Assembly: GCF_947241125.1 (NCBI RefSeq)
Contig: NZ_OX365700.1
Location: 930,001 to 994,000 of the forward strand
Direction of reading: 5' to 3'
DNA from: Nitrospira tepida
Lineage (GTDB): Bacteria; Nitrospirota; Nitrospiria; Nitrospirales; Nitrospiraceae
Length of the DNA stretch: 64,000 nt
Shown here one piece after another: positions 25,242 to 42,957 of this stretch (position 1 is the stretch's first letter; every line of letters begins with the position of its first letter). Position numbers and translations under genes: made by a program. Below the pieces are notes generated by a model. The model saw nothing but the letters and a program-made list of their open reading frames with translations. It was not told where the DNA came from and ran no database searches.

Positions 25242-25547
25242 ATGATGCGAAAGACGACGAGAAGGATTGTCGGGGCAACGGCTGCAGTGGGAATCCTGTT
25301 GGCCGCCATGGTGTGGGCGGGAGGGACCGGCCCCCACGCTCAGGAGGGTGTGAATCACGCCAAGGAGGGGATCGTCCATGTGAAGGAAGCGATCGCGCAT
25401 CTGGAGGAGTCGGTCAAGGTCGGCGGTGATCCTCATGCGAAGGAGTCCCTGGCGCATGCAAAGGAAGCGATCAAGCACGCGGAGGAAGCGATCAAGCATG
25501 CGGAGCAGGCCGCAGAACAGACCCCTGCGAAGAAGCCCCCTCGATAG
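25242..25547 (+). CDS. SmbP-like small periplasmic metal-binding protein
   Basis: This 101-residue protein has a signal peptide (residues 1-27) followed by helical heptad repeats rich in His, Glu and Lys: HAKEGIVHVKEAIAHLEE, HAKESLAHAKEAIKHAEEA and IKHAEQAAEQ. SmbP of Nitrosomonas europaea has the same repeat pattern and binds copper and other divalent metals in the periplasm. Size, export signal and repeat register all agree. It precedes an intact cytochrome P460 gene by about 60 bases in the same direction. A role in scavenging or buffering copper follows from the family; the metal in this organism is inferred. The C-terminus ends in a short basic KKPPR tail. Confidence 0.87.
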   Translation: MMRKTTRRIVGATAAVGILLAAMVWAGGTGPHAQEGVNHAKEGIVHVKEAIAHLEESVKVGGDPHAKESLAHAKEAIKHAEEAIKHAEQAAEQTPAKKPPR

Positions 25548-25606
25548 ACCGAACAAGAGGCACGGTAGTCGTTGTCATCCTACGATTGATAAGGGAGGCC
25601 CAGGTG

Positions 25607-26158
25607 ATGAAGGCCACGATCACGGTCGCAGCGGCGTGTGTGGGGTTTGGGTTGCTGGGAGTAGGTTGGCACCTGATCGTTCACGCAGACAGCGCTCCCA
25701 AGGACGGCGAGTTGGCCTTGCCGGGCGAGTACCGGAGTTGGCCCAAGTTCTTAACCGAAGTCCAGCGTGAGGATGCCAAACAGGTGCGTGAACTCTATGT
25801 CAACCCGGTTGGGGCCAGGGCCTGTCCCGTCTCAGCCTTTCCCAACGGTACGATGATGGTCATGGAACTCTACAAAGCGAAGGCTGACGGAGGAGCTCTG
25901 GCGAAGGGGTCGGACGGCAAACTCGTGAAGGGGGAACTGGCAAGGATTTTTGTCATGGGCAAGAACGAGGGGTGGGGACAGGGCCATCCGGACCATCTCA
26001 AGAACGGCGCCTGGGTCTATGCGGCATACGGGCCTGGCGGCAAGGCGTTGGCCGAGGATTTTACGAAATGCCGGGCCTGTCATGCGCCGTTGGCCCAGAA
26101 GGATTTTGTCCATCGCTACGACGAATTCTGCGCGCAACGGGCGTATTCATCCCATTGA
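25607..26158 (+). CDS. Cytochrome P460-type c-heme protein
   Basis: This 183-residue exported protein has a signal peptide to about residue 25. The P460 fold follows, with [61 protein letters not shown] and the heme-attachment site CRACHAPLAQKDFVHRYDEF. P460 cytochromes oxidise hydroxylamine or NO in ammonia oxidisers, using a c-type heme with an extra lysine cross-link. Many relatives lack the cross-link and have other roles. GGGAGG precedes the ATG at 25607. The C-terminal domain of the hemoglobin fusion at 42037-42957 is closely similar. The substrate in this organism is not known. Confidence 0.88.
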   Translation: MKATITVAAACVGFGLLGVGWHLIVHADSAPKDGELALPGEYRSWPKFLTEVQREDAKQVRELYVNPVGARACPVSAFPNGTMMVMELYKAKADGGALAKGSDGKLVKGELARIFVMGKNEGWGQGHPDHLKNGAWVYAAYGPGGKALAEDFTKCRACHAPLAQKDFVHRYDEFCAQRAYSSH

Positions 26159-26186
26159 GGCCTAAAAGGCGATTGAGTGGCCGGAT

Positions 26187-26260
26187 CCGAGGCTCGTGTT
26201 CCTCGATGTCCTACCTCCACACGAGCTTCGGCCAGGGGGGCGGCTCCCAGGCTGCCCCCC
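26187..26260 (+). promoter_or_regulatory. Two-hairpin repeated element, copy 1 (candidate structured RNA)
   Basis: Hairpin 1 (26187-26231) pairs CCGA-GGCTCGTGT with ACACGAGC-TTCGG around a 19-base loop ending CCTACCTCC. Three bases later hairpin 2 (26235-26260) pairs GGGGGGCGGC with GCTGCCCCCC around TCCCAG. Copy 2 at 27241-27314 has the same stem lengths, the same 19-base loop and the same 3-base spacer, with compensatory changes in hairpin 2. It lies 170 bases before the first HMA-like gene. No T-run follows, so a simple terminator is unlikely. Confidence 0.6.
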
Positions 26261-26434
26261 CACCATTCGTCCCTTCACGGATCAACAGCGGCAGCCTGCA
26301 GACTGTGGACCAGTGCGTGGGTCGTAAGTCCGAGACTTTGGACGGCCACCTTGGCTTGGACTTACGCGAGGAAGGGACGCCGATCCCCAGCGTCCTTTCC
26401 TCCCTATTTTCTTGGGGCGATGTGAAGGTGCGGT

Positions 26435-26842
26435 GTGAAGCCTGGATTTCTGATTGATCGTGCTCGAATTGCGCTGGCGGCGATGATGCTTGCCGCTTGT
26501 CCCATCACATGGGCGTCCGCGGATTCAACTCCGGGCGTGACGCCGGACCGTGTGGAGTCGCCCGCTGACGGAGAGCTTATTGTGCAGATCGTCGGGCGGT
26601 TTTGCGAATACCAACGGCGTGACGTGGAAGCGGCCTTGGAAGGGATCTGGAGCGTGCGCCGCATCGAGTTTCTGAACGACCATGGAACCCTTCGCCTGTC
26701 TTACGAGAGCCGCAGCGGCACGGAGGCGGAGCTGGCCAGCGCCGTGGAGCGGGCGTTGTCGCTGGGGTGGTTCTGTTCAGCCCATGTCGATCCTGACGGG
26801 CGGGCCGATGCGCCCGTTCGTCTCGTGGAGGTGATCCGATGA
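26435..26842 (+). CDS. Secreted HMA-like small protein 1
   Basis: This 135-residue protein (GTG start) has a signal peptide ending near ITWASAD. A domain with a beta-alpha-beta-beta-alpha-beta rhythm like heavy-metal-associated (HMA) domains follows: ELIVQIVGRFCEYQRRDVEA, then IEFLNDHGTLRLSYES, then LGWFCSAHVDPD. The usual HMA loop M-x-C-x2-C is absent. Instead one Cys follows the first strand (GRFC) and one lies at the last strand (WFCSAH). The next gene has the same unusual placement. It overlaps that gene by four bases (ATGA), so they are co-translated and probably work as a pair. Metal binding is plausible but inferred. Confidence 0.68.
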   Translation: MKPGFLIDRARIALAAMMLAACPITWASADSTPGVTPDRVESPADGELIVQIVGRFCEYQRRDVEAALEGIWSVRRIEFLNDHGTLRLSYESRSGTEAELASAVERALSLGWFCSAHVDPDGRADAPVRLVEVIR

Positions 26843-27144
26843 GAGAACGATTGAGTAGTTTCCTGGTGATCATGATCTGTGCGGAATGGTTCCTTGCGCC
26901 GGTGTATGGAGCGGAGAACAAGGTGATGCTGATGCTCGGAGGAGAGTTCTGTGATGCCTACCTCGATGAGGTCGAAGAAGCGGTCAAGAAGGTTGTGGGG
27001 GTGAAAGCGGTGGATCTCAAGAGTATGAAAGGGCATGCCGTGGTCACCGTCGACGCGAGCAAGGCCAAACCGGAGCAGATCGTCCACGCCGTGAATCAAG
27101 TCAAGGGACAGAGGTGGCATTGTACCGCGCAGATCATGAAATGA
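26839..27144 (+). CDS. Secreted HMA-like small protein 2
   Basis: This 101-residue protein has a signal peptide (residues 1-24) and one HMA-like domain: NKVMLMLGGEFCDAYLDEVE, VVGVKAVDLKSMKGHAVVTV, and the end RWHCTAQIMK. The pattern E-F-C after the first strand and W-H-C in the last strand mirrors the preceding gene (R-F-C, W-F-C), so both arose from one ancestor. The standard CxxC metal loop is missing. If the fold is right, the two cysteines could come together at one edge of the sheet, as a single metal site or disulfide. It starts inside the stop of the first protein. The TlpA proteins upstream could keep such cysteines reduced. Confidence 0.7.
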   Translation: MRERLSSFLVIMICAEWFLAPVYGAENKVMLMLGGEFCDAYLDEVEEAVKKVVGVKAVDLKSMKGHAVVTVDASKAKPEQIVHAVNQVKGQRWHCTAQIMK

Positions 27145-27240
27145 TCGCGCAGGTCGGCGTGACCGCGGCTGCGCCGTTCGAGGCGTTCGGCGTACATGCG
27201 GATCGAACTTTTGAAGTGTGCGATGGAATGAACGTGGCAT

Positions 27241-27314
27241 CCGAAGCTCGTGTGTCGGTCTGACCTACCTCCACACGAGGTTCGGATTGGGGAGCGGATC
27301 ACAGGCCGCTCCCC
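27241..27314 (+). promoter_or_regulatory. Two-hairpin repeated element, copy 2 (candidate structured RNA)
   Basis: Hairpin 1 (27241-27285) pairs CCGAA-CTCGTGT with ACACGAG-TTCGG (one internal mismatch) around a 19-base loop ending CCTACCTCC. Hairpin 2 (27289-27314) pairs GGGGAGCGG with CCGCTCCCC. Compared with copy 1, a G-C pair has become A-T in hairpin 2, which preserves pairing. It lies about 110 bases before the amidohydrolase/receptor gene pair. The loop's CCTCC could mask a Shine-Dalgarno sequence; this is inference. Confidence 0.6.
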
Positions 27315-27423
27315 GCCACACCACGCGGCGTGTGCATGGCGCGACTCTGGGTCGCCGCCTCGTCGCAACGATGTCATGTCTCGGCTTCGTGTCATCACTG
27401 CGCTTTAGCTCGGGAGAGTCTCT

Positions 27424-28803
27424 GTGAAACAGGTTTCCGTTCTGGTCGTCTTCCTGATCTGCGCCGCCCTAGATGATCGAAACTTCCTTCCCTCTCAGAC
27501 CCTGGCTGGGTTGGCGGATGCCCCCCCGCCGCAGGCCTACGCCTTCATTAATGGGCAGTGGTTTGACGGGGCAAGCTTTCAACGCACGATCTGGTATGCG
27601 GTCGAGGGGCGATTGACGCAGAGGCCTCCGGCGGGCGCCGTTGAGACCGTCGATCTGGCTGGCGCCTTCATCGTTCCTCCGTTCGGTGAAGCGCATAATC
27701 ACAACGTCGAAGGCGAAGGGAACCTCGACTCCGTCGTCGCTCGATACCTGAGGGATGGCATCTATTACGTCAAGATTCCCAACAACGTCCGGGAATTCGC
27801 CGTGAAGATCAGGAGCAAGGTCAATCGATCCTCCACCATCGATGTGACCTTCGCACACGCGGGCCTCACGGGAACCGGAGGCCATCCCGGCACCTTGTAC
27901 GAGGATGTCCTCCGAGCCGGTCGCTATGAACCGGTCGTCGGCCCGCTGGAACGGGGATGGTTCCGGAATCGGGCCTATGTCGAGATGGACACGAGGCAGG
28001 AGGTGGAGGACAAGTGGGCAATCGTGCTCAACGGCGAGCCTGATTTCATCAAAGCCTACCTGGTGCATTCGGAGGATGCCGGGACCGAGAGGCTCGGCGC
28101 AACGACGGGAGTCCGGAGGGGCCTGAATCCCACGCTCCTACCCGTGGTCGTCGCCAAAGCGCATGCGTCCGGAAAGCGAGTGACCGTCCATGTCGAAACA
28201 GCGGCCGATTTCCGCCTGGCCGTTCAAGCGGGGGCGGATGAAATCGCCCATCTGCCCGGTTGGCTCGTGCGGAACGCGCGCGATGTCGAGCTTGCCCGCC
28301 TGACCGAGGACGACGCGAGGTTAGCTGCGGAACGAGAGGTGATCATTGTGACTACCACGGTCGCCGGAAAAGCCATGCCCGCGGCCGCGACGTCGCATCT
28401 GCACGATGATCATCCTGGCGGCGACCACGACTTAGGGGACGGCGAGCGCCATGGAGATGCCCCCGCACTTCGCCATGACGCGCGGAAGGTGCAGGGCGAG
28501 AACCTCGCGTTGCTGCGTCGGCATGGTGTGCGATTGGCCATTGGGAGCGACCATGCCGACACCTCCCTTGCCGAGGTCACTCATCTTCGTACCTTCCACC
28601 TCTTCGATAACCTCACGTTGCTCAAGATGTGGTGCGAAGCCACGCCGGCCGCTATTTTCCCCGAGCGCAAGATCGGCCGGTTCGCAGAAGGGTATGAGGC
28701 CAGCTTCCTCGCCCTGGCCGGCAATCCGCTCGACGAATTCGAGGCCGTGCAGGCGATCCGCCTTCGAGTCAAACAGGGCCGGCTGCTCCCGGCACCGCCG
28801 TGA
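27424..28803 (+). CDS. Secreted amidohydrolase-superfamily protein with His-rich insert
   Basis: This 459-residue protein (GTG start) has an N-terminal signal peptide and a metal-dependent amidohydrolase domain. Metal-site residues visible in order are GEAHNHNVEGEG (H-x-H), the candidate bridging lysine PDFIKAYLVH, VTVHVETAADF, DEIAHLPG and the catalytic AIGSDHADTS. Between the last two comes an unusual stretch, TSHLHDDHPGGDHDLG followed by GERHGD, full of His and Asp; it is not part of the conserved fold and could bind extra metal. The substrate is unknown; the superfamily hydrolyses amide, ester or similar bonds, often in rings or dipeptides. It is followed by a TonB-dependent receptor, so processing of a metallophore or imported chelate is a fair guess. 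Confidence 0.82.
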   Translation: MKQVSVLVVFLICAALDDRNFLPSQTLAGLADAPPPQAYAFINGQWFDGASFQRTIWYAVEGRLTQRPPAGAVETVDLAGAFIVPPFGEAHNHNVEGEGNLDSVVARYLRDGIYYVKIPNNVREFAVKIRSKVNRSSTIDVTFAHAGLTGTGGHPGTLYEDVLRAGRYEPVVGPLERGWFRNRAYVEMDTRQEVEDKWAIVLNGEPDFIKAYLVHSEDAGTERLGATTGVRRGLNPTLLPVVVAKAHASGKRVTVHVETAADFRLAVQAGADEIAHLPGWLVRNARDVELARLTEDDARLAAEREVIIVTTTVAGKAMPAAATSHLHDDHPGGDHDLGDGERHGDAPALRHDARKVQGENLALLRRHGVRLAIGSDHADTSLAEVTHLRTFHLFDNLTLLKMWCEATPAAIFPERKIGRFAEGYEASFLALAGNPLDEFEAVQAIRLRVKQGRLLPAPP

Positions 28804-31681: not shown

Positions 31682-32164
31682 ATGTATCGGCCTTTGATGG
31701 TCGTAATCATGGTCATAGTGGAAGTGTTCGCGGGGAGCCCGGCCGTGTTCGCATTGCAATCCGGCGGCGTGGAGATCGGCGATCTGGAAAGCGGGTCCGT
31801 CGTGGGCCAATCCTTCAAGGAGCTGCCGGTCGATCTGGAGCTTCAGGCGCTGGAAGGCGTGGGGGGCAAGAGCGTCTGGTATCCGCCCGTAGCCGTGCTC
31901 AATATGGTCGGACGCGCCGGGACGCCGGTGCTGCTGAAAGTGACCAATGCCACGAAGGCGGAGCAGACATTCGGATTGTCCGCCGAGGAAAACATTTCGG
32001 CCCCCACGACCTTGAACGTCAAATTGACGCTCAAGCCGGGCGAGACGAAGTACATCGGCATCCCGACCAGCGACCTGACCTATGTCACGGCTGGTAGTGT
32101 GCTGCGATACCATTCGCTCACTGATAAGAGCGTGTTGGGAGGACAATTGATGGTGATGAAGTAA
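31682..32164 (+). CDS. Cupredoxin-like periplasmic protein
   Basis: This 160-residue protein has a signal peptide (residues 1-24) and a beta-sandwich pattern resembling cupredoxins. In order are VEIGDLESGSVVGQSFKELP, the Greek-key strand TPVLLKVTNATKAEQTFGLS and TTLNVKLTLKPGETKYIGIP; a late YVTAGSVLRYHSLTDK follows. The classic type-1 copper loop C-x2-4-H-x2-4-M is not present, although a His (YHS) and terminal Met residues (QLMVMK) occur. It could be a copper-free relative or a different metal carrier. AAGGAGGTAG precedes the ATG. A strong terminator hairpin follows the stop, ending the transcript. Confidence 0.65.
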   Translation: MYRPLMVVIMVIVEVFAGSPAVFALQSGGVEIGDLESGSVVGQSFKELPVDLELQALEGVGGKSVWYPPVAVLNMVGRAGTPVLLKVTNATKAEQTFGLSAEENISAPTTLNVKLTLKPGETKYIGIPTSDLTYVTAGSVLRYHSLTDKSVLGGQLMVMK

Positions 32165-42036: not shown

Positions 42037-42957
42037 ATGAAGACGGGATTCGCCATGTGGATGGTCATCGGGCTGCTGGGGATCGCCACCGCAGGCTGCA
42101 ACACGATGGAGTCATCGCCGGGCGGGAGGATGGCGGACGCATCGCTCTACGAACGGTTGGGAGGCAAGCCGGCGATTACGGCGGTGGTGGACGATTTTGT
42201 CGGCCGCGTGGCGGCTGACAACCGGATCAACGGGAAATTTGCCAACGCGAACATCCCTCGCCTCAAAACCATGTTGGTCGATCAAATCTGCGAAGCGTCC
42301 GGCGGACCGTGCAAGTACCGCGGGCGCGACATGAAGACCGCCCATGCCGGGATGCAGATCACCGGCGGGGAATTCGATGCCCTGGTCGAGGATCTGGTGG
42401 CCAGCCTCAACAAGTACAAGGTCGGCGACCGCGAGAAAAAGGAACTGCTCGGCGCGCTCGGTCCCATGAAGGGGGACATCGTCTCCTCCTCGGCCATGGG
42501 ACCGAAGGATGGGGATCTGGCCTTGCCGATGGGTTACCAATCCTGGCCCAAGTTCCTGTCCTTCGTCCAGAAGCTGGACGTGAAGCAGGTGCGGGAACTC
42601 TACATCAATCCCACGGGATCGAGGACCAGACAGGGAGAGCCGTTCCCCAACGGCACCGTCATGGTGATGGAGATCTACAAGGCCAAGATGGACGGAGACC
42701 AACCGGTCAAGGACCCGGACGGCAGGTTGATCAAGGCGGATCTCGCGAAGGTCTTCGTGATGGGGAAGAACGAAGGTTGGGGACAAGATCAACCGGAGCA
42801 TCTCAAGAACGGATTATGGCTCTATGCCGCCTACGGACCGGACGGGAAGAAGCTCATGGAGAATTTCGGGAAATGCCGCGCCTGTCACCAGCCGCAGGCT
42901 CAGAAAGATTTCGTCCACAAGTACGACGAGTATTTCCAACAGCGGTCGGCCATGTGA
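42037..42957 (+). CDS. Truncated hemoglobin fused to cytochrome P460-type domain
   Basis: This 306-residue lipoprotein (lipobox ATAGCNTM, Cys near residue 22) has two domains. Residues about 38-150 form a group I truncated hemoglobin: [40 protein letters not shown] and the region [20 protein letters not shown] with the heme-ligand His of KTAHAGM. Residues about 165-306 are a P460-type cytochrome with [31 protein letters not shown] and the c-heme site [20 protein letters not shown]. Both halves bind heme, so NO or hydroxylamine detoxification with internal electron transfer is an attractive idea. GGAGGGAGC precedes the ATG. It is the first gene of the DUF4331/nickel operon, 36 bases upstream of DUF4331. 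Confidence 0.88.

Follow-up and report, generated by a model that had tools for sequence, protein, structure and literature searches.

Small RNAs (sRNAs) derived from 3′ untranslated regions (3′-UTRs) in general lie directly after a stop codon, have a structured 3′ end and are processed from the mRNA. The CcsR1–4 or cuckoo RNAs of alphaproteobacteria (CcsR1 being Rfam RF02791) expose an anti-Shine-Dalgarno (anti-SD) motif in a hairpin that is followed by a G+C-rich hairpin; these RNAs occur in several copies after a short protein gene, whose transcript is cleaved to yield them, so that they are released from a protein-coding message (PMC10253847). In rhizobia, αr14/NfeR1 presents unpaired anti-SD seeds, and those of NfeR1 block the start regions of its targets, as in the silencing of ntrBC (PMC10746234); NfeR1 has three hairpins with seeds that do not differ, and it is controlled by a promoter of its own. 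For Nitrospira, no base-pairing sRNA was found in the literature searched or in Rfam, and a transcriptome study of N. moscoviensis was carried out with small RNAs removed (PMC6606698).

The element described here occurs twice in the window, by which we mean the whole stretch of 64,000 nt of the Nitrospira tepida genome that was analysed. In the best registration the copies span 26185–26260 and 27239–27314 on the plus strand, are 76 nt long, 78% identical and 1054 nt apart from start to start; as annotated features they cover 26185–26262 (75.8 and 67.5 bits with the covariance models R2 and R3, respectively) and 27239–27316 (84.7 and 77.5 bits). The original prediction of duplicate copies with one architecture at these positions was confirmed, each copy folding into hairpin 1, in which 13 pairs close a loop of 19 nt that ends in CCUACCUCC, and, after a spacer of 3 nt, into hairpin 2, which is G+C-rich and has 9–10 pairs. 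Hairpin 1 of copy 1 (26187–26231) pairs 26187–26199 with 26219–26231 around the loop 26200–26218, which ends in CCTACCTCC, and its G+C-rich hairpin 2 (26235–26260) has 10 pairs; in copy 2, hairpin 1 (27241–27285) has its arms at 27241–27253 and 27273–27285, a single internal G-G mismatch and its loop at 27254–27272, and hairpin 2 lies at 27289–27314. The G-C to A-U swap that had been pointed out in hairpin 2, with pairing kept, is present. RNA folding gave −47.0 kcal/mol for copy 1 and −48.7 kcal/mol for copy 2 (z of −4.4 and −6.8), and none of 200 dinucleotide shuffles was as good. Neither copy has a T-run, as had been noted before, and no T-run, consensus terminator or sigma-70 promoter-like site was found in 25400–27450, though 4–5 T stand downstream of hairpin 2 in some homologues (G002, G093, G094). 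The source genome, one 4.73-Mb contig, contains only these two copies.

The order of the parts, an exposed anti-SD hairpin and then a G+C-rich hairpin, is that of the CcsR RNAs. The element scored 19.3 bits against RF02791, where the gathering score is 65.3, and its homologues gave no match, and this weak score reflects similar architecture, not membership. The anti-SD motif of the CcsRs is CCUCCUCCC, whereas the loop of the Nitrospira element contains CCUCC within the consensus seed GACCUACCUCC; the CcsR host gene encodes a DUF1127 protein, whereas the gene upstream of our element encodes a cytochrome P460, an FCEYQR-type protein, an HMA protein or an HTH_17 protein; and the CcsRs belong to a different phylum. 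With NfeR1 the element shares the unpaired anti-SD seed, but it has one seed in one hairpin, with a complementarity of 12–18 nt that changes with one target. Like 3′-UTR-derived sRNAs it follows a stop codon, has a structured 3′ end and is likely processed from the mRNA; unlike them, some copies stand after other genes of the cluster or where P460 is gone. By analogy, the element would work like the anti-SD sRNAs of alphaproteobacteria while being a separate family in another phylum.

Past the closest genera, a DNA similarity search returned a single true homologue (in G020), and we therefore used covariance models, a first one and then two richer ones. By these models, 36 genomes out of 236 in the order carry the element, and all 36 belong to the Nitrospiraceae, in 13 genera; it was detected nowhere else among 346 genomes sampled across the phylum, and it was not found in the N. 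moscoviensis genome G108. Early hits without the loop motif (L018–L021, L023, L038, L040 and L041) were excluded. In two further genomes the copies are degraded, and in four genomes of genus g18 (G102, G090, G084, G042) P460 is present and the element is missing between similar flanks. Across 28 distinct sequences, 91.6% of the cells in paired columns were paired and 18 of the 23 pairs had changed on both sides (89 such cells), in an alignment that was fitted to the structure and so somewhat favours it; no shuffle out of 500 reached any of these measures, and sliding the structure by 1–3 columns lowered the paired fraction to 45–53%. Both hairpins also emerged, with 8 pairs changed on both sides, when 14 members were aligned by MAFFT without structural guidance. 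Since the paired columns, in the plus reading, hold 69 G-U against 6 A-C cells, the RNA is most likely the plus strand, which is also the strand of the upstream genes. No Rfam family was matched at its gathering threshold, the scores being otherwise at chance level, and no description of the element was found in the literature searched, whose coverage mostly leaves out subscription papers. The double hairpin that occurs twice in the window represents a genuine, conserved RNA family of Nitrospiraceae that had not been listed before.

Two loci showed variations on this arrangement. On the minus strand of locus L039 in G035, three copies lie within about 1 kb (1124–1202, 1501–1577 and 2053–2130) and their loops differ. 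In N. defluvii (L255:5041–5119), and likewise at L256 and L273, another element of two hairpins was observed after a degenerate P460 gene and upstream of a gene resembling those for small metal-binding proteins (SMBP-like); its loop lacks CCTCC and has GCTGACCACGCA instead, and it could be a divergent relative directed at a different target.

In the window, copy 1 begins 26 nt past the stop codon of a cytochrome P460 gene (25586–26158, plus strand, likely start ATG at 25607; PF16694, 94 bits), whose mRNA is its probable host transcript. On the same strand there follow a gene for a conserved small secreted protein of the FCEYQR type (26435–26842), without Pfam match and recurrent in element clusters, and a gene for an HMA-domain metal-binding protein (26839–27144), 94 nt after which copy 2 begins. 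Among 38 copies inspected, 20 directly follow a P460 gene (PF16694) on the same strand, at 14–42 nt from its stop in 19 copies and at 184 nt in one, which is the position of a 3′-UTR; the remaining copies come after the gene for the FCEYQR-type protein, the HMA gene (as for copy 2) or the HTH_17 gene of the same cluster. The upstream context is more regular than the downstream one: the next gene varies among genera, an HTH_17 gene starting about 20–35 nt past the element in many genera and for almost half of the copies inspected. It had been proposed that each copy is a leader of the metal-related unit that follows; the recurrent neighbour turned out to be the P460 gene upstream. Covarying homologues across Nitrospirota upstream of metal genes had been expected of a regulatory RNA; covarying homologues do exist, the element being present in 36 genomes, but they do not usually lead metal genes. 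Two genomes without a P460 match keep the element, namely G013 and G083, in the latter with 90% identity over 84 nt to the N. defluvii element, and it is therefore not merely a part of the P460 gene.

Several features of P460 genes and their surroundings were recorded alongside. Ahead of the P460 gene that precedes copy 1, the window contains a weak, perhaps degenerate P460 gene (24527–25114) and a small metal-binding-protein-like gene (25242–25547), and a further P460 gene at 42526–42918 (L112) is without an element after it. Simple G+C-rich hairpins were seen downstream of other P460 genes. In G037 (L013/L074) there are about 150 nt extra between the P460 stop and an intact element. Elsewhere in the source genome, a P460-type gene occurs in two identical copies separated by 4.5 kb (L131 and L132; G000:C1:2108251 and 2112721), and repeats of TTCCGAC...CGGCCAC form an array after each of them.

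The predicted target, cupredoxin A, is encoded outside the window, on the minus strand of the source genome (G000:C1:4211769–4212242), with GGAGGTAGGTCA at the gene start; its product is a secreted cupredoxin-like protein of 159–160 aa. It scored 17.5 bits against the nitrosocyanin model TIGR03096 (cut-off 142.85), for which reason "nitrosocyanin-like" is used here as a description and not as membership, and a PDB sequence search with it gave nothing useful. The reverse complement of the loop, GGAGGTAGGTC, immediately precedes the cupredoxin A ATG in each of the nine element-bearing genomes searched, and in ten genera the loop is a perfect 12–18-nt complement of the cupredoxin A ribosome-binding site and start codon. 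For the window pair, the putative seed of copy 2, TGACCTACCTCC (27261–27272), is a perfect 12-nt complement of GGAGGTAGGTCA, and the loop motif of copy 1, CCTACCTCC (26210–26218), is complementary over 9 nt to the cupredoxin SD, GGAGGTAGG, the match being stopped there by one mismatch (TGTCC for TGACC). In three g18 genomes (L161, L172, L182), AAGGAGGTAGGTC is located directly before the ATG of a tyrosinase-family gene (PF00264), just as at the cupredoxin site, and the sequence match makes this gene a possible second target. The same AAGGAGGTAGGTC directly precedes the ATG of mscL in the source genome (L164, G000:C1:488778). Nine genomes where the element was not found retain AAGGAGGTAGGTC, the standard cupredoxin site, which is therefore not kept only for the RNA.

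The loop and the target site change together between genera. In g7 (G006) the loop exactly complements the site, GCAAGGAGGTTGGC, with 14 nt for its own target and 6–9 nt in crosses; in g12 (G011) the site is CAAGGGAGGTAGGT, with 14 nt for its own target and 13 or less for others; in g8 (G035) it is CCAAGGGAGGTAGGC, with 15 nt. Of the three copies in G035, one matches the cupredoxin start over 15 nt and another over 11 nt, and the remaining one hardly fits. For g19 the loop of G038/G043 was read first and predicted CCAAGGGAGGTAGGC; the site was then found at the cupredoxin A start in G038, where the full site has 18 nt of perfect complementarity reaching into the AUG. When targets were permuted among 14 genera, the observed total was reached in 38 of 200,000 permutations, a procedure that treats the genera as unrelated. 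In the target tree g8, g19 and g20 are grouped, with g7 and g12 elsewhere, and since g8, g19 and g20 form one clade, the co-changes over four genera amount to about three or four events. Cofolding gained most with the own target or that of a close relative in G006, G011, G035 and G038; it showed no gain for the window's own pair, the method being unable to model loop contact within a closed hairpin. The fit to cupredoxin A is only 5–9 nt in g6, g10, g2 and g20, and for the shorter GACCUCC loops of g6 and g10 a target search gave many SD matches, none of them long or convincing.

As controls, we compared the loop with other gene starts. Cupredoxin paralogue B, present in 29 of 34 genomes searched, usually inside the element's own cluster, and found in the window at 31682–32164 on the plus strand (8 nt complementary to the loop), has an ordinary SD and matched by 6–10 nt, essentially the SD core, and was rejected as target; the start region of the downstream HTH gene matched by 6 nt or less. 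The separately encoded cupredoxins mostly keep a CHLH ligand-like motif, which the window paralogue B has lost. Among 677 ORFs sampled in 340 kb of N. defluvii, only cupredoxin and tyrosinase reached 13 nt, the next best having 9, in a sample for which the two stretches with the 13-nt hits were chosen deliberately to include them. The earlier suggestion that the CCTCC loop pairs with a Shine-Dalgarno sequence is strongly supported by computation, through co-change with a specific target: what was found is a conserved, accessible seed complementary to the start of a distant mRNA and kept so as both change. On sequence grounds, the loop appears to be fitted, from genus to genus, to the site where translation of one copper-protein mRNA starts, and the element most likely switches that protein off.

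Other readings were weighed against the same data. That the element is a structured 3′ end of P460 or cluster mRNAs, a terminator or stabiliser with CCUCC in its loop for unrelated reasons, would account for its place right after the stop codon in many genomes, for the G+C-rich hairpin 2 with 4–5 T after it in some homologues and for the simple hairpins downstream of other P460 genes. However, hairpin 1 and the 11-nt loop are kept, neither being required by a terminator, the loop tracks the target start site, and the frequent start of the HTH gene 20–35 nt downstream fits a free-standing terminator poorly; we regard this explanation as unlikely. The same HTH_17 start, together with the metal-related genes around the window copies, could instead point to a cis-acting leader, an attenuator or metal riboswitch of the following gene or, in many genera, of HTH_17. 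Against such a leader, which we hold to be quite improbable, the downstream genes are not the same between genera, the loop matches the HTH start region by 6 nt or less, and neither an alternative terminator nor an anti-SD switch is visible. A metal riboswitch or 5′ leader finds support neither in the gene context nor among the Rfam riboswitches, none of which matched; of the original prediction of a conserved structured regulatory RNA, the structure with its many compensatory changes stands and the leader or riboswitch role for the following metal gene falls away.

An element in the P460 3′-UTR that carries an anti-SD motif might also feed back in cis, its loop pairing with the SD of its own mRNA. 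The gene starts of the window cluster, like the window genes in general, match only at chance level (10 nt or less), however, and P460 itself has AAGGGAGGCCCAGG, which fits the core only, making cis feedback very improbable. A mobile repeat of REP or MITE type, which had been named as the better explanation should homologues lie at random or inverted positions, would be in line with the 1-kb distance between the two window copies, the group of three in about 1 kb of G035 and the four g18 genomes in which similar flanks enclose no element. Such a repeat would leave numerous copies, scattered over differing contexts and in either orientation, and these were not seen; there are 1–3 copies per genome, at a constant strand relative to one gene cluster across 13 genera, and covariation and target co-change add to these in leaving the mobile repeat with almost no credibility.

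The explanation that we consider probable is that the element is a base-pairing sRNA of Nitrospiraceae, about 76 nt long, probably released from a 3′-UTR and masking the cupredoxin A SD. Structure, strand, genomic position, complementarity and co-change with the target come directly from computation; for transcription, processing, repression, the inducing signal and the physiological role, we infer the following course of events. The sRNA would most likely be released from, or co-transcribed with, the 3′-UTR of the P460 gene or of its cluster neighbours, with hairpin 1 displaying an unpaired seed of the GACCUACCUCC type and hairpin 2 shielding the 3′ end. On the mRNA of the separately encoded nitrosocyanin-like cupredoxin (AAGGAGGUAGGUC-AUG), the seed would pair with the SD together with the start codon and prevent ribosome binding; pairing that spans the SD and extends to the start codon should block initiation, as the NfeR1 anti-SD seeds do (PMC10746234). 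When the P460 cluster is expressed, less of the copper protein would then be made and, in some species, less of a tyrosinase-family copper enzyme with the same site.

More tentatively, this would be a nitrifier-specific RNA through which induction of the P460 cluster might repress the nitrosocyanin-like cupredoxin, and tyrosinase in some species, in a copper-sparing or iron/copper-switching circuit whose seed is re-tuned by co-evolution with the target. If so, a haem protein of nitrogen-oxide metabolism, P460, would be tied to a copper electron-transfer protein, and the genera would offer naturally orthogonal sRNA–target pairs, cognate and non-cognate. It would be the first base-pairing sRNA with a named target in Nitrospira, the most widespread nitrite oxidisers, backed by a seed–target co-change across genera that is rarely to hand before any experiment, and it proposes a testable link between the P460 haem protein and a nitrosocyanin-like copper protein in nitrite oxidisers.
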